From positions 1 through 64,000 of the forward strand of contig JAOAPY010000026.1 in the NCBI GenBank assembly GCA_025463135.1: 64,000 nucleotides of DNA, given 5' to 3'. This DNA is from Acidobacteriota bacterium (GTDB lineage: Bacteria; Acidobacteriota; Blastocatellia; Pyrinomonadales; Pyrinomonadaceae). Within the stretch, counting starts at the first letter, position 1; every line of letters starts with the position of its first letter. Made by a program: the position numbers and the translations under genes. The notes under the pieces were generated by a model. It did no database searches, was not told the DNA's origin, and saw only the letters and a program-made list of their open reading frames with translations. Shown in pieces: positions 4,956-17,840 of this stretch.

Positions 4956-6968
4956 TTAGAGGATCACAATCGTGGGGCGATTACTGCGCTGGCCGTTGAC
5001 GATGAGGGTCAGGTCAATCAAGCCCGAGCCTTGCAACTCGGGAATGAGAACAACGTTGATATGATCCAGCCCGGCGATTAGGCTCTCGCCTCCCGCAAAT
5101 TCAACCGGCAAGCGATAGGTGCGACCGTCCTGTGTATGAGCTTCGATGGTGACCGACTCGGCAAGATTGGGGATCAGGACGCCATTAACCCAGACATCAT
5201 TGCTCGGATCAAAGTTTGCCGCGTTGCCTACTACCCCGGAAGCGAAAATCATTAGTCGGGTTCGCTTATCATTACTGAAGTTCTCTTGAGTGATAACAGA
5301 TACCGTGGTCGCGGAAGTTTGACGACCTATATTCAAAGCCAACACTGGACCGGCGGTGTCACCCGTTATGGTGACGAGTCGAAGTGACGATATCGGCGTT
5401 GGTGTCGGTGTCGGTGTTGGTGTCGGAGTCGGAGTCGGTGTTGGCGTCGGTGTTGGTGTCGGCGTTGGTGTTGGTGTCGGCGTCGGTGTCGGCGTTGGTG
5501 TCGGCGTCGGCGTTGGTGTCGGTGTCGGCGTTGGCGTTGGCGTTGGCGTCGGTGTTGGCGTTGGCGTTGGCGTGGGGACCGCGAGCACAACCAAATGCTC
5601 GATTGTCAGCGAGCCACTCACACCCGCGTCAAAAATAACTGGACAGAAGACCCGAGGCGAGAAGGCATCGTTAACGCAGGACTGATCCAGCGTCCCGCGC
5701 GAGCCTGTTCCCTGGGTACCGACAACACTGTAGACGATGGACGGCCCCAACCTGATAAACACACCATCCATATCCACGGTCACACGGCTTCCCACCGGCG
5801 GTCCCGAAGTCGGCGTGGGAGTCGGAGTAGGTGTCGGCGAAGAACCAACGATCGTGATATTCAGATCAACATATGCTGGGTTGTTGCCGCCACTACCGGC
5901 GAAAGTAATTGAGTTGCCATTCGGATCCGTGAACGTTCGCCCCAACAGCAAGGGAGCATCCAGGAATCCCGATGCCGAGCCGGGTGTCATATCCAGCAAC
6001 ATCACACCACCCCAATTCACCAACAACCCAATGCCTTGCCGGTACTCGATCCAATAATCCTTCGACTGAAACCCCGGAATGCGCAGACCATAGATTCTGG
6101 TTGGATCAATTGCCGTCTCACGATCCTGAGCATGAATGCGATACGACCCGCTGGTAGTGACGCGGGGAATGTTTGCCGGCGGCATCCAGCCCATCTCGTT
6201 CTTGTGGAACAGGTTGAAATTGGATTGCGTTTGTTCCGTCCCAAATACGTCAAAGGGATCGGCAATGCCACTTGGCGCCGGGGCGCCACAACCCGTGCAA
6301 TTTCCAAAGATCGTACCGTCCGTGGTCTGCCAGCCATTGGCCCGATTGGCCATGTGCAAATAGAAGTCGACTATGAATCCTTCGATTCCGTAGGTATTGT
6401 TCAGAATGTCTGCCGGCTCCAGCCAAAACCAGTCGCCTCCAGTGGTGAGATAGCTGCTGAAGACTCCATAAAAACGCGGTATGTAGACAATGTTCAGGTC
6501 GTACTGAGAATAGTTGTAACCCTGGGCCAGGGCGAGGGCGCGCGCGTCGGCCAGGACCGCAGTGGTGCGCCCCGAAAGACCCTGATAGTAACTTACGGGC
6601 TGAGGCAGTGTGACGACCGGCCCGACATTCCACGTCAGGGAAAACTGATTGTAGGAATAGGCGCTGAAGTCAGAGTTCGCCACGCCGGCATTTGTATTTA
6701 AACTCGCGTCCGTTGGGAGCGTTCCGTTAGGATCATCGGGAAAGCGCGCCCGAATGAACAACAAACTCTTTTGGCCGTGAGAATGGTCCAGGCGTGCCGG
6801 GATGTTGGTGCTGAAGAGAGCTCCGGTTTGCGAAGCATTGCTCGAGCGCGCCTTGATTCCTACGGGCGCCCATACGATCAGAAATAAGATTATGAATGCG
6901 ATCGCAGAAAAGAGTACCGCAACACGAAAGTCCGACCATCCTCGAAGGTTATTGCGACAACTCATCAA
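4956..6968 (-). CDS. Secreted gametolysin/M6-M11-like protein, zinc motif lost
   Basis: A 670-residue exported protein. An N-terminal membrane segment at about 17-38 acts as signal or anchor. Residues about 60-350 resemble the gametolysin (M11/M6-like) metalloprotease fold, with the downstream signatures [19 protein letters not shown] and YWIEYRQ. Where these enzymes have HExxHxxxxH, this protein reads [17 protein letters not shown] (about 192-208), so the Glu and both first histidines are missing. Residues about 388-460 form an SH3-like module ([17 protein letters not shown]), 465-524 a Thr-Pro run, and 530-670 a C-terminal domain shared with the next gene. It may be a binding protein or a dead protease. 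Fold assignment is by motif. Confidence 0.65.
5397..5573. repeat. Thr-Pro coding hexanucleotide-type repeat
   Basis: About 177 bases of GGCGTT/GGTGTC-type units encode an unbroken Thr-Pro run in the minus-strand protein. Synonymous third positions vary, so it is maintained as coding sequence and is not a pure microsatellite. The opposite strand reads Val-Gly repeats that are artefacts. Confidence 0.9.
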
Positions 6969-7483: not shown

Positions 7484-10400
7484 TCAGGGAACCACGATCG
7501 TCGGCGCGTTACTGCGTCGTCCGTTGACGATGATCGTCAGATCAACAGTACCGGCGCCTTGCAATTGCGGCACCAGCACGACGTTGATTTGGTCTAATCC
7601 CGGCAAAGCGCCGCGCGCGCCGGCAAACTCCACCGGCAATTGATAAACCCGATTGTCCTGAGTGTGAGCTTCGACGATCACAGATTCGCACAGGTTCTGA
7701 ATAACTGCGTTGCCTTCGGATATGTCATTGCTCGTATCCGTGTTGGCCGCGCTGCCGCTTACACCAGTCGCGAAGAAGGTGACGCGCGTGCGTTTGTCGG
7801 AGCTAAGGTTGACCTCAGTAGTGACCGACATTTGCTCCATTAATTGCTTTGCATCGTTGACCACCAGGGCGGGGCCAACTTCATCGTCCGCCATTGTCAT
7901 GATCCTGGTTACGTCAGGTGTAACGCTAATCGTGCCCTTTGATACGAAACCAGCCTGCGACACTACGATCACTTCGGCATCGCCCAGGGGAAGATTCGCC
8001 GGCACAAAGAACGTCACGCGTGTGGGTGAAACAAAGAAGACCGGGACGGATTGTCCGCCCACTGAAACACTGACGCCTTCCAATTCATAAGGCATGCCAC
8101 TACCGGAGTTCAGGTCGGCAAACTTTGTTTGCGTGCTCAGCGGTGCAACAGCATCGCCGAAAATGGAACCGAGACTGGCGGGTGAAACCAGTCCATCAGC
8201 AACGGGTCCCAGCCCAGATCTTGCAGCGCCGATAGTCAGGATCATTCTGGCATTCACGAATATCGCCAGCTGAATAGTCTCTGGAGTGATCTGGCCATAA
8301 CGCATCAGGTCTTCAGTGACAGCAAGGTGGCCAATGGTGCGTTCGAGGTGCGCCTTCATACTTGCCGAAGGTCCCGTCTGACCGGCCAGCGCCGCATCGG
8401 CGCGCGCGAAATAATATGCAGCCATCAATTGCGAAGCGATTTGCCCGCTCGAGTCGCCGAACAGATTTCTTTCGTCCGTGAAGTCTCTATAAGCCTGTTG
8501 GATTTCAGCCGCCAGCGCATCGAGATTTGCGGCCACCGCCGTTGCGGGTGTTGCTTCGCCATTGGCTGCTCCAGCATAAGGGCTGCTGGGCCATAAGAAT
8601 CCGGCAACGATAGTGTTGGCGAGTTCCCTCGCATGGTTCACACTCTCGGGCGACCTAATCACGTTTACGGAAACGCTCTGCGAGAAGGCGGTTGCGCCCG
8701 AGTTGTCGAAGGCTTTCGCCGACAAGCTGTAAACACCGCTGGAAACGTTGGTCCAGACAAAGGTGTAAGGCGATGATGCCGTGCCGCCGAGCAGGACGCC
8801 GTCGGCATAGAAGTCAACTCTCACGACCTGGCCGTCAGAATCTGTGGCATTCGCGGTTAGAGTAATATTGGCGCCCATAACGACACTTGATCCATTGAGC
8901 GGCGAGACAATATTGACACTCGGCGCCACGTTTGGTGAGGGCGTCGGAGTTGGCGTCGGCGTCGGCGTTGGAGTTGGCGTCGGAGTCGGAGTTGGCGTCG
9001 GTGTTGGAGTCGGAGTCGGAGTCGGAGTCGGAGTCGGCGTTGGAGTCGGAGTTGGCGTCGGCGTCGGAGTCGGCGTAGGCGTCGGCGTTGGAGTCGGCGT
9101 AGGCGTAGGTGTTGGTGTAGACAGCACAACCACATGCTCGACCGTTAATGCACCGCTTACGCCGGCGTCGAAAGAGACATGGCAGAAGATGCGAGGCGAA
9201 GCAGGATCATAAAGGCACTGTTGATCGAGCGTTCCGCGAGCGGTGGTGCCCTGAGTACCGATAACCGCGTAGATTATCGATGGACCGGACCTGATAAATA
9301 CACCATCGATATCGACCGCTACCCTGGCGCCGACGCTTGGTCCCGGAGCCGGACTCGCATTCGGCGTCGGCGTCGGACTGGGTGTCGGCGTCGGACTCGC
9401 TGTTGGTGTGGGAGTAGGGGTCGGTGTTGGAGTCGCCGTCGGAGTTGGCGTCGCAGTTGGCGATGGGGTCGGTGTCGGTGTCGGCATGGCTGCGTTGGAC
9501 AGCGCCTGATTCAACTGATTGATGTTGACGCCGATGTCCGTGCCATCGCTCGCCGCGTTATGGGCGGGGCTGGTTGCCTGTACCATCCAATCAGTGAGAA
9601 CCGTCGAATTGCTTCCCGCAAATCTAACCGCCGCCCAGCTCGGGGCTGCCAGGTTCGTTGATCCCGGGAAATTACCCAGCGGATTTGCTCCGGGAACATT
9701 CATGGCAAACAAATTGTGATCTTGCGTGGGATTGCTGAAACAATTCAGGTATGCAGTACCGCCAGCCGGCATATTACAAATAGCTGTATAAGTTCCGGCG
9801 TCCACCAGATTATCCCGGACAGTAACTCCCGTTGCTTGAGTCACCTGATAGTAGGGAGCCTGAACGCCTCCCGGGCCTCCGTTTGAGGGTCCGGCTGCGA
9901 GCAAAGACGTACCGGTATTGAAATTCGGAAATCCACCGACACAGGTGTTGTGCGTGATAGTCAGGTTTGCCGCCGCTCCGCTCACATTGACGCAAGAGCC
10001 ATCGGTAACGTCCCGGTTGAGTGCCAGGTTATTGTCAACCAGAATGTCATGACCCTGGGTCGAAATGCTGATGTAATCCGTCAGCGACAACATCACCATC
10101 TGCGTGTAAGACAGGAACCAGTTGTTTCTGATGGTCAGGTTAGCTGAGGTGCACCAGGGACAACCCCCGTTTTGGTTTACCGTAGTAACCGCCAGCGTGC
10201 CCGGAAAGCCGCCAAAAATATTCCCTTCAAAGCGACAGTTTAGGCAGCTCTTGGTTTCGATGAATCCCTTTGGGTGGTTACCGTTAGTGGCTTGATGAAC
10301 AGTACTGAAGTCAACCGGCAAATTAAAAGTATTGCGTGTGACCGTCAGGTCGGAAGGCTGCGTTCCGGCCCAAACGACTTGGCCGGGAACCGCCGGCGTC

Positions 10401-11458
10401 GTGTAAGGAACGACTCGCGATGCATTTCGATCGTTGTTGAATAAGTCCTGGGCAAAGGTGACATCGCCCGTACTTTGGTTTACTGAAGCAACCCTTCCTA
10501 CCGCCCAACAAGGCAACGTGATTCCATTTCTGCATTTGGTGGAATCATCTGAATGAGGCAGATCCAAAGCAATGTTCATCCCGACACTAAGTCCCGCCAC
10601 ACTCGAGAGTCGCGCTGAACGAAGTGTGGGCGCCGGATTGGGGAGCACAGTCTGAACACTGTAGGGAATACCGTCGGAGCCACCGACCAGGATCGGTGTG
10701 TACCACGCTTCCAAAAAATTGTTGTCGATTACAGTGTGATCCGAAGTGCCGGAGACGGCGACAGCGTGCGTCTGTTGAGCACTGCCGTTGCTGAACTGCG
10801 AGTCATACGGGTCGCGTCCAAAGAAGTCGTAGATGTAACTGTTCTTGATCGTGACATAGCTGCTGTTGTTGCTGAAGGCCCACTTGCCGCGGGTCAGCCA
10901 GTTGTTCGCCGCCGTCGGATGTTCCTTCGGGTGAACCACACAGCGATCAAAGATGATGTTGTTGGCTGTGTAAGATAGATCGACCATGCCAAAAGTTATG
11001 TCGTTACCGGTGTTGCCGGTCAGGTCGTTGGTGATTTCAAAACCGATGAACTGATAGCCACTGGCGCCGCTGTTGGCAAAGATGACCGCGGTGTTGGGCT
11101 GATTCACCGACAGGGTCGGCATATCAATTACATTTGATGGTGAGACGCGCGTCGCAGCGGATGGCAGGAGAGGCAGGTTAGCGCTTTGGATCGTGACGTA
11201 GTTCGAGCCGTTGAAGGAACCCGGTTTCACTGGCAGGGTGAAACCGCCATGGAATGTTGCGACCTGGACGATGATCGTATCGCCGCGATTAGCGGTATTG
11301 ATAGCGGCCTGAAGATCGGCGCCGGCCGGCACGACTATGGTCGCGGCCCCGACTGAGCTGCTGATTCCGGCGAGCAGACTCAGTATCGAAATTGTTAAGA
11401 ATGATTTTAAGAAAGACCGCTTGGATAGGGGTCGAAAGGATCGGGATACAAAGAACAT
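7484..11458 (-). CDS. Giant secreted beta-helix protein with Ig-like and TIGR03437-like domains
   Basis: About 1324 residues. A signal peptide ([19 protein letters not shown]) is followed by a parallel beta-helix region (about 40-650; [18 protein letters not shown], many N-rich turns), a Thr-Pro-rich linker, an SH3-like module ([17 protein letters not shown], about 705-780), a second Thr-Pro run, a bacterial Ig-like domain (about 850-935) and a C-terminal region (about 1075-1324) resembling TIGR03437. The ATG at 11458 is chosen because GAGG lies six bases upstream. A GTG four codons earlier has no such site. It is probably an adhesin or surface glycan-binding protein. It has its own terminator, and the riboswitch candidates upstream suggest second-messenger control. 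Confidence 0.8.
8935..9120. repeat. Thr-Pro coding repeat, long run
   Basis: Hexanucleotide-type units (GGCGTT, GGAGTC and variants) encode about 62 residues of alternating Thr and Pro between the SH3-like and Ig-like domains of the minus-strand protein. A shorter, less regular run encoding Thr/Pro/Ser/Ala lies at about 9358-9487, before the SH3-like module. These are probable extended, wall-spanning linkers. Confidence 0.85.
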
Positions 11459-11472
11459 TTTCGTCCTCACTT

Positions 11473-11549
11473 CGGTAGCCGGACGATCTCAGGGCAAGAG
11501 ACTCCTGGCTTTGCGGACCCAGATCACTCTGGGGGTGCCGTTTATCGGT
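11473..11549 (-). promoter_or_regulatory. GEMM-type (cyclic di-GMP-I-like) riboswitch, proximal
   Basis: Read on the minus strand, the segment has GATAAACGGCA, a stem CCCAGA/TCTGGG closed by the GNRA tetraloop GTGA, the signature CGCAAAGCC (11515-11507), a second hairpin, and GGCTACCG at the 3' end. This is the order of elements in the GEMM/c-di-GMP-I class. The 3' strand ends only about 3 bases before the AGTGAGGA ribosome-binding region of the ATG at 11458, so control of translation initiation is plausible. Whether the ligand is c-di-GMP or cGAMP cannot be read safely. Confidence 0.75.
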
Positions 11550-11565
11550 TAAGGTCTGAGACCTT

Positions 11566-11880
11566 TGGAAAAGAACTATCGGTAGTGCAGAACCGCGCGC
11601 TGAAGACTGGGCCAGTTAACTTGCGCAGCTTGGCGGATAGCAGCATCGGGTAAGGAGCAACGCTACTTCTTAGCGATATGAGGATAGGAACACGCGAAAC
11701 CTTACCGTCTAAATAGCTGACGGAAAGGACTGATTGGCGAAAATCTGTTAATAAAGATGATTACGAGCGGAAGAAATGAGGCAACCCACCGACAGAAGTG
11801 CTTGGTGGGTTCGGAGACAGCTGGGAAGAACCTCGCGTGTTATATTCGCGGAGTCTCAGAGCTGGTTTCTCTCCGATCGC
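11566..11880. other. Inter-riboswitch leader region
   Basis: No gene is supported between the two riboswitch candidates. A perfect 8-base-pair hairpin (AACCCACC / GGTGGGTT, 11783-11811) lies about 70 bases downstream of the distal riboswitch on the minus strand, but no T tract follows it. A weaker hairpin CCGTC/GACGG occurs near 11705-11725. Confidence 0.45.
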
Positions 11881-11991
11881 TTTCGGCAACCAGACAATCT
11901 CAGACCGGCCCGGATGATTCGAAATCTTCCAAGCGCGCCGAGACTCACGGCTTTGTGTCCCTGCCTCGCGACAGGTTTACCTTTATCGGTG
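11881..11991 (-). promoter_or_regulatory. GEMM-type riboswitch, distal copy
   Basis: On the minus strand: CCGATAAAGGTAAACC, a six-pair stem CCTGTC/GGCAGG with the GNRA tetraloop GCGA, then GACACAAAGCC (the conserved AAAGCC, near 11949-11955), a long second hairpin with GAGTCTC/GAGAxx arms, and GGTTGCCG at the 3' end. The architecture matches the proximal copy, but the sequences differ, so this is not a recent duplication. No open frame follows it before the proximal copy, so both may sit in one leader of the beta-helix protein gene. Confidence 0.7.
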
Positions 11992-12302
11992 CAATCGCTA
12001 TGACTGAAAAGAGCTTGCTATCAGGGTGATAGCCACAGCCCTCATTAAACGATGATGGCCATTGTTTGTCAAGATATTTTTGCTATTTGGGGCCGAATTT
12101 TGCTGCCTCTGCCTGCTCAATAGCCATGTGGACCGAGGTGCCCGGGAGATGTGCCGTGTCATGACCCAAAACGCCGCTAACTGTTGCAAGGCAAACTCAG
12201 CTGGTATTGAAACGCCGGCCCGGTGCTGTTAAAGTCGGCCACGGAATTTGAAAACTGGATCCACTTTCGTGGGAGTTCGATTCGGTTAGAAATAAGCCCG
12301 AA

Positions 12303-16148: not shown

Positions 16149-17840
16149 TTACTTACGGCCGGTGCCCTGTACGGCAAGGTTAACTCCGGATGCTTCAAAC
16201 AATGCGAAATCAATACCGGGATCTTTGCCGTCGGTCGCCGCTTTGCGAAACTTATTGCCGGCTGCAAGCCGCCAATTACCTCTAGCGTAGTCATTGAAAC
16301 CAAACTGGTCATAGGAAGCGACGAAAAAGTTTCCGGGAGGAAAACTCTTCTCAATCTGATTGGCTGCTGACTGGTTCCTATTATCGGCGATAACATTTCC
16401 CTTTACCGTGGCGCCTGGAAAGCAATTACAAAAAGGAACGTCCGGACAAGCCGCACCTTGAATGAAACAAGCAATACCATAGAGATTGTACTGAATGATG
16501 TTGTTGCGAAACACAAAGTTTCGCGAGGGGTTGTTATAGGCGGAAAGAATGTTTCCTATTTGCTGTACCGTGTTGTGCTCGACAGTCAATGAATCTCCGC
16601 CGCTTACCTGCAGAAAATAAGTACTGTCTCCTGGCGACTCCAGGTCTGTAAACAAGTTATTCGCTATCTTGATGTTCTTTGCTTCCACGCTGGGAAATTG
16701 ATCGTCCTTTCCCAGAAAATTCATGCCGGCATTCGCATGACGGGAAATGTTATTGGTGATCTGCACGTCCCGGATCGTGCTCCAGGGTGCTTTACCATTC
16801 TGATTGCGAACGGTGATTACAAACGCGGCCTGACGCGGATTGCTGCTCTCAATAACGTTCCCATCAACAATCACACGTCTCGCATTCTTCAGCTCGAAGC
16901 TCCCTTTCATCGTCACCTTACCGGCCCATTCGGGCGGCCGGTAAAAATAATTCCGGCGAATCTCGATATCCGAGGGGATCAGATTTGTGATGGACGGATC
17001 GGCGCCGCCAAAAATAAGTACCTCAGCGCCGCCTTCCAGATAATTGTTAATGATGTGGAATGGGCCGGGGCCATTCCAGCCGGCAATAGCCTGAGTCTCG
17101 TCACCCTCACCGGCAAACCCGGAGACGTGCGAGTTGATTACCGAAGTCTCAGCGCTGTTCAGAGCAAAGCCCCGCCGCGCTTTGCCCAGGCCGGTTGAGT
17201 GAACATAGCAGCGATCGAATATCAGGTGATGCGGAAACTGCGCGTACTCCGTTTCCGCGTTTCCCAGATCTATCAGGTTGTATACATATTTGGAGTTGGC
17301 GGCCGGTGAGAATTCAACTCCAATGAAACGGAAATGATGCGCCTGTGGTTCGGCACTCAGTGCTTGTGAATTTGAAGAAACTATTTTGGGCAAAGCACGC
17401 GCGTGCTGTCCAGGCTTGATCCGCTCGCCTTCACTCGAGATCCCGGCAAGGTCAGAGGTCCGAATGGTTATGTAGTCCGCATCGGTGCCGCTGCCCGGCC
17501 CTTTGTAAGGAAGGACAAAAGGACCCGAGTAAGTGACGCCCGCCTGGAGTATTATGGTGTCCCCAAATTTGGCCGACTTCAGTGCTGCCTGCAGATCGCC
17601 GTTGGCGTCCACGTTAATCTGATCCAACTTACCTGACGGTCCCAGAGATCGAACCGGCTCGCTCATTCTCGCTGTTAGGAAGACCACCAGACAGAGAATC
17701 GCAAGGGCGCCGATGCCAATCGCCGCAATAACTACTCTTGATCTTTTATGCTGGGCCGGAACGCTGACTCTCCTCCCGCTGATCCATTCGGAACATGCGA
17801 AAAAGCTGGATGCCTGGGTCGATCGAAGAATTTGACTCAT
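16149..17840 (-). CDS. Membrane-anchored right-handed beta-helix protein
   Basis: 563 residues. One transmembrane segment at about 34-55 (VVIAAIGIGALAILCLVVFL) is followed by an extracytoplasmic beta-helix region with repeated short strands and Asn ladders (ITNNISRHAN, VFRNNIIQYNLYG). The start of the helix domain (GDLQAALKSAKFGDTIILQAG) parallels the beta-helix domain of the 1.3-kaa protein at 7484-11458, so the two are related. Beta-helix proteins in polysaccharide loci are often lyases or C5-epimerases, but no catalytic motif is evident here. It lies directly upstream of, and in the same direction as, the GT4 gene. Confidence 0.75.
   Translation of the reverse strand: MSQILRSTQASSFFACSEWISGRRVSVPAQHKRSRVVIAAIGIGALAILCLVVFLTARMSEPVRSLGPSGKLDQINVDANGDLQAALKSAKFGDTIILQAGVTYSGPFVLPYKGPGSGTDADYITIRTSDLAGISSEGERIKPGQHARALPKIVSSNSQALSAEPQAHHFRFIGVEFSPAANSKYVYNLIDLGNAETEYAQFPHHLIFDRCYVHSTGLGKARRGFALNSAETSVINSHVSGFAGEGDETQAIAGWNGPGPFHIINNYLEGGAEVLIFGGADPSITNLIPSDIEIRRNYFYRPPEWAGKVTMKGSFELKNARRVIVDGNVIESSNPRQAAFVITVRNQNGKAPWSTIRDVQITNNISRHANAGMNFLGKDDQFPSVEAKNIKIANNLFTDLESPGDSTYFLQVSGGDSLTVEHNTVQQIGNILSAYNNPSRNFVFRNNIIQYNLYGIACFIQGAACPDVPFCNCFPGATVKGNVIADNRNQSAANQIEKSFPPGNFFVASYDQFGFNDYARGNWRLAAGNKFRKAATDGKDPGIDFALFEASGVNLAVQGTGRK

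Follow-up and report, generated by a model that had tools for sequence, protein, structure and literature searches.

Two c-di-GMP-I Aptamers of Different Subtypes Precede a Gene for a Predicted Beta-Helix Protein

The locus lies on the minus strand of the window, that is, the whole 64-kb stretch (64,000 nucleotides) of DNA analyzed, from a soil acidobacterium, and comprises a gene for a 1324-aa protein and a leader with two aptamers, as follows.

7484 to 11458, minus strand: putatively regulated gene, 1324-aa protein, predicted secreted, with a predicted N-terminal right-handed beta-helix part, Thr-Pro repeats, Big_7, and a C-terminal domain
11471 to 11549, minus strand: proximal c-di-GMP-I aptamer (switch B), RF01051, 48.1 bits, E 2.5e-6
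11550 to 11881, minus strand: interval between aptamers A and B, 332 nt
11882 to 11991, minus strand: distal c-di-GMP-I aptamer (switch A, long P3), RF01051, 55.2 bits, E 4.6e-8

When the whole window was searched by cmscan against 4227 Rfam families, exactly two matches exceeded the gathering score, both of them to RF01051 (c-di-GMP-I; threshold, 35 bits), which places A and B in this family by covariance-model score. This was the Infernal check named beforehand for the original prediction of tandem GEMM (c-di-GMP-I) aptamers in one leader, which had located both segments to within two bases and had put the separation at about 330 bases. The GATAAA stretch, the GNRA tetraloops (GCGA and GTGA), CAAAGCC, and the CCGAA end are all there. 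The prediction had also set the proximal copy against the ribosome-binding site; aptamer B indeed runs straight into GTGAGG, and ATG 11458 begins 12 nt after the aptamer. What it had missed were the two subtypes, the promoter before A, the predicted capture of the Shine-Dalgarno (SD) sequence by an extended P1, and the family-wide conservation.

A and B of the window represent different c-di-GMP-I subtypes. Against RF03167 (c-di-GMP-I-GGC), they scored 56.5 and 45.6 bits, respectively, both below the gathering threshold of 59 bits, which the A switches of several relatives and one single B (L054) exceeded. Given that the 6.48-Mb genome holds only three RF01051 matches at E <=0.001 and that the family has the pair at 21 loci, the A-B pair is not due to chance. 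The third genomic c-di-GMP-I switch is a single one on another contig; this switch, L053 (G000:C17:12434-12521), is of another subtype (GGCACAC..., ...ACTTGGCTGGGTTACCGAA) and is without SD contact. A copy of the leader was also looked for on a plasmid, and no match was found.

The N-terminal part of the 1324-aa protein aligned with 14 other proteins at 26-33% identity, and nine of the 15 aligned proteins, the window's own not among them, matched Pfam Beta_helix at E <=0.01. A structure model of the protein (mean pLDDT, 71.2; pTM, 0.75) matched right-handed beta-helix proteins in the PDB, including GH110 galactosidases, PL6 lyases, and phage tailspikes (best E, 7.5e-7); the TM-score on the query was 0.17-0.38 among the 50 matches listed, so the match supports the fold class only. 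A right-handed beta-helix part is predicted from this model, and the look of the N terminus suggests that the protein is secreted. The giant beta-helix adhesin proposed earlier was thus upheld as a predicted beta-helix but not as an adhesin, as the model matched GH110 and PL6 enzymes as well as tailspikes; between an adhesin and a polysaccharide-active enzyme, the model cannot decide. The neighboring genes at 4956-6968 and 16149-17840 (minus strand) share parts with this protein (56% identity to the C-terminal domain, 33% to the beta-helix part).

The A-Then-B Order Is Conserved among Pyrinomonadaceae

RF01051 matches were found in 79 of 119 Pyrinomonadaceae genomes; as the genome scans scored only part of the first-look candidates, every tally is a lower bound. 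Simple text rules together with visual inspection served to class 123 switches, type A being defined by CCGAA followed by (A/G)GC or (A/G)GT, with 26 weaker single matches within the family and 8 further weak matches outside it left out of the classing. Pairs of A followed by B occurred at at least 21 loci, that of the window included, in 19 of the 119 genomes and in 11 genera. A precedes B at all 21, the first switch being of type A and the last of type B, and the gaps from A to the next B span 143-380 nt, exceeding 300 nt at 12 loci. One of the 21 loci, L131, holds three switches in a row, namely, A, B upstream of a 126-aa ORF, and another B upstream of a beta-helix-like gene of 700 aa. A further pair, the 22nd (L058), is truncated at a contig end but still includes the start of a B. 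L133, near-identical to L132, was left out of the interval, terminator, alignment, promoter, and folding sets. L060, L076, and L153, which belong to another subtype (class C), and L165, whose score is low and whose end is altered, were left out of the alignment, pairing, and folding of B, and the former three also of the analysis of the 40 nt upstream of B.

At eight loci, cmscan, run to an E of 5, detected no B beside A, and B-type switches were also found alone; as each occurs without the other, A and B are, judged from their sequences, separable modules. In the A-only leaders L055 and L056, the sequence shortly before the gene resembles a decayed B aptamer by eye, cmscan being negative there. 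Such solitary switches show that each can do alone, as would be expected if one aptamer of the pair were a functionless relic kept by chance. This explanation is nevertheless hardly credible, because 11 genera retain A and B together, the P1 extension of A covaries, and the partner strands of B are kept, as described below.

Pfam CAP matches were obtained for the B-only proteins of L069, L081, and L157 (the three scanned) and for the small tandem-controlled proteins of L050, L051, and L052. Most other B-only genes, of 180-216 aa, are alike by eye, and the B-only locus L054 precedes a beta-helix-like gene. A tRNA gene lies about 1.6-2 kb downstream in each of six B-only loci (L069, L081, L138, L142, L157, and L167), which suggests a conserved gene order there. 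When a pattern of the family's B 3′ end plus SD was sought in 84,980 species genomes, 15 stretches matched, all of them in MAGs labelled Pyrinomonadaceae, Acidobacteria, or Acidobacteriota; together with the kinship to the family's genomes, this suggests that the window stems from a Pyrinomonadaceae species.

Both Aptamers Carry the Selectivity Base Favoring c-di-GMP

At the position that we take to be equivalent to G20 of Vc2, by our mapping of the Vc2 numbering onto the window aptamers, the RF01051 alignments place a G in both window aptamers, and neither has the A that marks cGAMP-type GEMM-Ib switches. G likewise stands at this selectivity position in every aligned A row and tandem B row.

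An A variant at the selectivity position goes with cGAMP (PMC6274999, PMC9481103), and a G20A form of the c-di-GMP-I class has been used as a cGAMP binder (PMC6274999). cGAMP was accordingly ruled out by the selectivity base as the ligand of either window switch and, both aptamers having the G that favors c-di-GMP, control by two ligands is unlikely; the two second-messenger inputs originally envisaged thus lost their footing. Two-input logic, with one switch sensing c-di-GMP and the other cGAMP, could still draw on the description of G20 as one factor in selectivity and not a strict filter (PMC9262584) and on the A found at this position in relatives' switches (L064, L079, L080, and the single B of L167), but the uniform G in the window and in the aligned A and tandem B rows makes it very improbable. 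L064, L079, and L080 are c-di-GMP-I-like switches (CAGAGCAAA) that look as expected of cGAMP sensors. The genome encodes 11 GGDEF domains, so c-di-GMP is likely made by the host.

A Near-Consensus Promoter Precedes Switch A

Upstream of A, the leader carries the following elements.

12044 to 12072, minus strand: promoter TTGACA-17-TTTAAT upstream of switch A (by sequence scoring, 29 loci)
12017 to 12033, minus strand: leader hairpin just after the promoter (GCTATCACCCTGATAGC)
12008 to 12012, minus strand: UCUUU element typical of switch A leaders

The best site upstream of A starts with TTGACA in 28 of 29 loci and with TTGACG in the remaining one. The mean promoter score was 10.0 upstream of A versus 7.5 for the best site downstream of it (searched in the interval, or in 330 nt for A-only loci), and the downstream site scored lower in all 29 loci. 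A stricter promoter expression matched 26 of 30 A switches, none of the 22 tandem B, and none of the 22 single B; among the 49 other switches, it matched 3. The exact promoter plus UCUUU pattern occurs once in the window's own genome, at this leader. By its sequence, therefore, a near-consensus sigma-70 promoter stands upstream of A. An internal promoter for B was ruled out by the same scores, that is, on sequence only, and A and B would be carried on a single transcript.

The stretch from the promoter to UCUUU is more stably folded than its base-shuffled copies, with a mean z of -2.49 over 29 loci; its hairpin at 12017 to 12033 also scored as terminator-like, two such sites being found in 1.3 kb with 1.5 expected. 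UCUUU lies within -40 to -8 of 30/30 A switches versus 7/93 other switches, unvarying and 16-25 nt before A, between the structured 5′ stretch and the aptamer. Inspected by eye, it showed no consistent covariation that would indicate pairing with the aptamer core or the P1 flanks.

Switch B Adjoins the Shine-Dalgarno Sequence and Probably Turns Translation Off

Three features at the boundary of B bear on its action.

11465 to 11470, minus strand: Shine-Dalgarno GTGAGG, directly adjoining aptamer B
11550 to 11555, minus strand: candidate anti-Shine-Dalgarno strand ACCTTA, outer 5′ strand of the P1 of B (not favored in the folding model of the window locus)
11551 to 11565, minus strand: hairpin AAGGTC-TCA-GACCTT, which would hold the anti-SD strand off the SD (-5.0 kcal/mol)

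B adjoins the SD region at 21/21 tandem loci, with GTGAGG directly after CCGAA in 18 of them (the others being L041, GTGGGG; L045, GGAGTT; and L135, GAGGCA). With start codons sought 8-21 nt after B, one was found 10-16 nt after it at all 21, opening an ORF of >=142 codons or one cut by the contig end. Two different complements of GUGAGG, CC(A)UCAC and ACCUUA(A)C, are common in the strand just 5′ of B.

In 39 B sequences, the extension of P1 over the SD had 82.0% of cells paired, compared with 21-48% when slid; 1 of 500 shuffles reached this percentage and 3 of 500 the covariation score, the shuffles for both A and B not keeping the relatedness of the sequences. Pairs with changes on both sides were not unusual (65/500 shuffles), and a one-column slide showed as many. 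An SD other than GUGAGG occurs in 8 of the 39 sequences. By eye, full complements are kept in L077 (AUAAGG with CCUUA), L078 (AUAAGA with UCUUA), and L157 (GUGAAG with CUUUAC), L041 and L074 are complementary with G-U pairs, L081 is so in part, and L045 and L135 are so poorly. Anti-SD and SD strands from the same sequence were weakly better paired than swapped ones (35/1000 permutations as low; 173 for the tandem and 66 for the single subset), the advantage being modest because the SD hardly varies. Pairing of the SD with its native 5′ strand was stronger than with base-shuffled strands (-7.15 versus -5.90, sd 0.33).

In the folding model, enforcing P1 lowered SD accessibility in 31 of the 39 sequences (mean, 0.28 to 0.14) and caused no fall in eight. 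For the window's own B, the SD was unpaired at 0.27 both free and with P1 enforced, its pairing with the P1 flank being 0.02. Here, the hairpin AAGGUC-UCA-GACCUU has the same energy as the anti-SD/SD duplex (-5.0 kcal/mol), a modelled balance that would suit a switch at this single locus; the 40 nt around this hairpin gave a z of only -1.31. Across the family, the 40 nt just upstream of B had a mean z of -1.72 versus -0.46 for the 40 nt further upstream (40 sequences each, base-shuffled).

Taken together, the sequences suggest that B is probably a translational OFF switch for c-di-GMP. A plain pseudo-cooperative tandem, in which both switches act on transcription elongation and the SD beside B is incidental, would agree with the listing of c-di-GMP-I doublets and triplets (347 and 12 unique, exceeding any other class) as pseudo-cooperative (PMC9481103). 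Still, the 10-16 nt between B and the start codon at 21/21 tandem loci leave no leader room for a terminator, and the complement between P1 and SD is kept in B sequences, so that we regard this alternative as decidedly unlikely.

Switch A Has an Extended P1 and Most Likely Acts on Transcription

For A and the interval behind it, the following were recorded.

11991 to 11997, minus strand: 5′ strand of the extended P1 of A (CGATTGC)
11874 to 11880, minus strand: 3′ strand of the extended P1 of A (GCGATCG)
11783 to 11811, minus strand: 8-bp hairpin followed by GCCTCATTTCTTCC, a weak candidate terminator or pause site (3/60 shuffles as high)

In 29 sequences, P1 of A is extended by seven pairs, CGAUUGC with GCRRUCG, with 93.5% of cells paired and changes on both sides at five pairs; none of 500 shuffles equalled this on any of the five measures used. 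Slid structures were 13-49% paired, yet had similar numbers of double changes. The extended P1 of A thus covaries.

An intrinsic terminator with seven T follows A in the relative L050. The terminator scan detected none comparable after A at other loci, and terminator-like hairpins between A and B, at 11.67, were not above the 10.51 (sd 1.07) of dinucleotide shuffles over 29 loci. As this best hairpin-plus-pyrimidine score did not exceed that of shuffles, no family-wide intrinsic terminator between A and B is claimed; the type of hairpin found at 11783 to 11811 was likewise not significant over 29 loci. That the 3′ strand of P1 in A has an alternative partner was also rejected, being supported neither by a duplex scan (mean z -0.58, 30 loci, base-shuffled control) nor, as a shared partner, by the partition function (mean z 0.12, 29 loci, dinucleotide control). 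When L050 was folded with and without the P1 strand, no competition of this strand with the terminator was seen.

The longest ORF contained in the window's interval has 14 codons versus 38 in shuffles. Over 20 tandem loci, the mean longest ORF was 33.0 codons versus 33.3 in shuffles, and a shared hidden ORF was dismissed on this equality; single loci exceeded their shuffles (L042, 84 versus 47; L049, 67 versus 37; L134, 59 versus 34). Conserved words fared no better, the 14 best-scoring of each length from 5 to 8 all falling below the mean shuffle maximum. GAACC was mildly enriched in the interval (15/29 loci, 6.2 expected). A GAACC/GGTTC hairpin is visible by eye in several loci.

In composition, the interval averages 32.4% C and 21.7% G, versus 25.1% C and 26.6% G upstream of A (means of 21 loci), and the genome has one Rho. 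Rho-dependent control in this C-rich, G-poor interval is therefore possible, but the first 600 nt of the downstream genes are C-rich as well (33.8% C, 27.3% G). A reading in which A works mainly through Rho or mRNA decay in the interval, the translation block by B exposing the RNA so that the two form one coupled process, would draw on this composition and on the presence of Rho; composition alone is weak evidence, and we consider this reading unlikely, though not far-fetched. The position of A and the L050 terminator favor an action on transcription as the most likely one.

A Model for Two c-di-GMP Checks on One Transcript

We propose, with somewhat better than even confidence, that one transcript carries two c-di-GMP switches, of which B is a translational OFF switch and A acts earlier, on transcription, so that the protein is checked twice. 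The transcript would begin at the strong sigma-70-like promoter about 50 nt before A; in its leader of about 580 nt, c-di-GMP would be sensed by two c-di-GMP-I riboswitches that differ in subtype. A has the longer P1 and is followed by 140-380 nt of RNA before B is reached, and it would act earlier, most likely on transcription elongation or termination. At B, c-di-GMP would lock P1, and the pairing would extend outward until ACCUUA covers the SD GUGAGG; without ligand, the 5′ strand of B could pair elsewhere, in the window within an upstream hairpin, and the ribosome could bind. The beta-helix protein would then be checked first as RNA and then as protein, and its response to c-di-GMP would be sharper.

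The consistent difference of A and B in subtype, P1 extension, and position would also fit an incoherent pair in which a single ligand turns A on and B off, and no result here fixes the sign of A. Such a band-pass would confine the beta-helix protein to intermediate c-di-GMP, such as may prevail when cells go from free-living to attached. However, no antiterminator/terminator pairing that would make A an ON switch was found, and tandems for a single ligand are credited with a steeper or two-stage control (PMC9481103); we therefore think a band-pass quite unlikely. Measuring the sign of each switch would turn these leaders into a natural test of a steeper response versus two-stage control versus band-pass. 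The beta-helix and CAP-domain proteins that look secreted are candidate members of a c-di-GMP regulon in Pyrinomonadaceae.

Comparison with Known Systems

Vc2 of Vibrio cholerae is described as a translational OFF switch in which P1, through its stability, is the key element (PMC9262584). Switch B resembles it as a c-di-GMP-I aptamer with a putative OFF action and a putative key role of P1. In Vc2, however, the masked site is distant from the aptamer (Inuzuka et al. 2018, cited in PMC9262584), whereas in B the SD directly follows P1. Among families, RF03167 (c-di-GMP-I-GGC) is a close match of switch A, yet neither window switch reaches its gathering score. Dual regulation of transcription and translation has been reported for a single c-di-GMP-I switch, Bc1 (PMC11218506).

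Tandems of c-di-GMP-I switches are known. A survey counted 347 doublets and 12 triplets, and its Table 1 lists bi-mechanism tandems only for SAM (PMC9481103); a triple tandem, Bc3-5, is described in Bacillus thuringiensis (PMC4759541). Like these, the present leaders have >=2 c-di-GMP-I aptamers upstream of one gene and the same predicted ligand (PMC9481103, PMC4759541); unlike them, as far as they are described there, the aptamers are of distinct subtypes, in fixed order, 143-380 nt apart, and the last is on the SD. A second survey found c-di-GMP tandems enriched in Thermodesulfobacteriota and Deinococcota, and the stem "Acidobacter" does not occur in its main text (PMC12452182). Nor was the arrangement described in the literature found on tandem c-di-GMP, c-di-GMP-I-GGC, acidobacterial, or CAP-domain riboswitches, among the matches listed, mostly titles and starts of abstracts. 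Thus, the widely spaced two-subtype form is new as far as this search reached.

With the bi-mechanism SAM tandem (PMC9481103), the leaders share a ligand presumably sensed twice and a second switch at the ribosome-binding site. Two aptamers stand in one leader, their common ligand and single transcript being predictions. The SD contact at 21/21 loci and the kept anti-SD pairing would fit control of ribosome access, the window's B showing no modelled change in accessibility. As for transcription control by the first switch, the SAM tandem has a reported terminator stem after it, whereas here a clear terminator follows A in L050 only and none is shared, and both switches belong to one aptamer class. 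Because the tandem survey left out gaps of >300 nt (PMC9481103), a limit that 12 of the 21 gaps here exceed, it could miss much of this conserved design, with a single second messenger probably sensed at two points of an mRNA, far upstream by one subtype and at the ribosome-binding site by the other.
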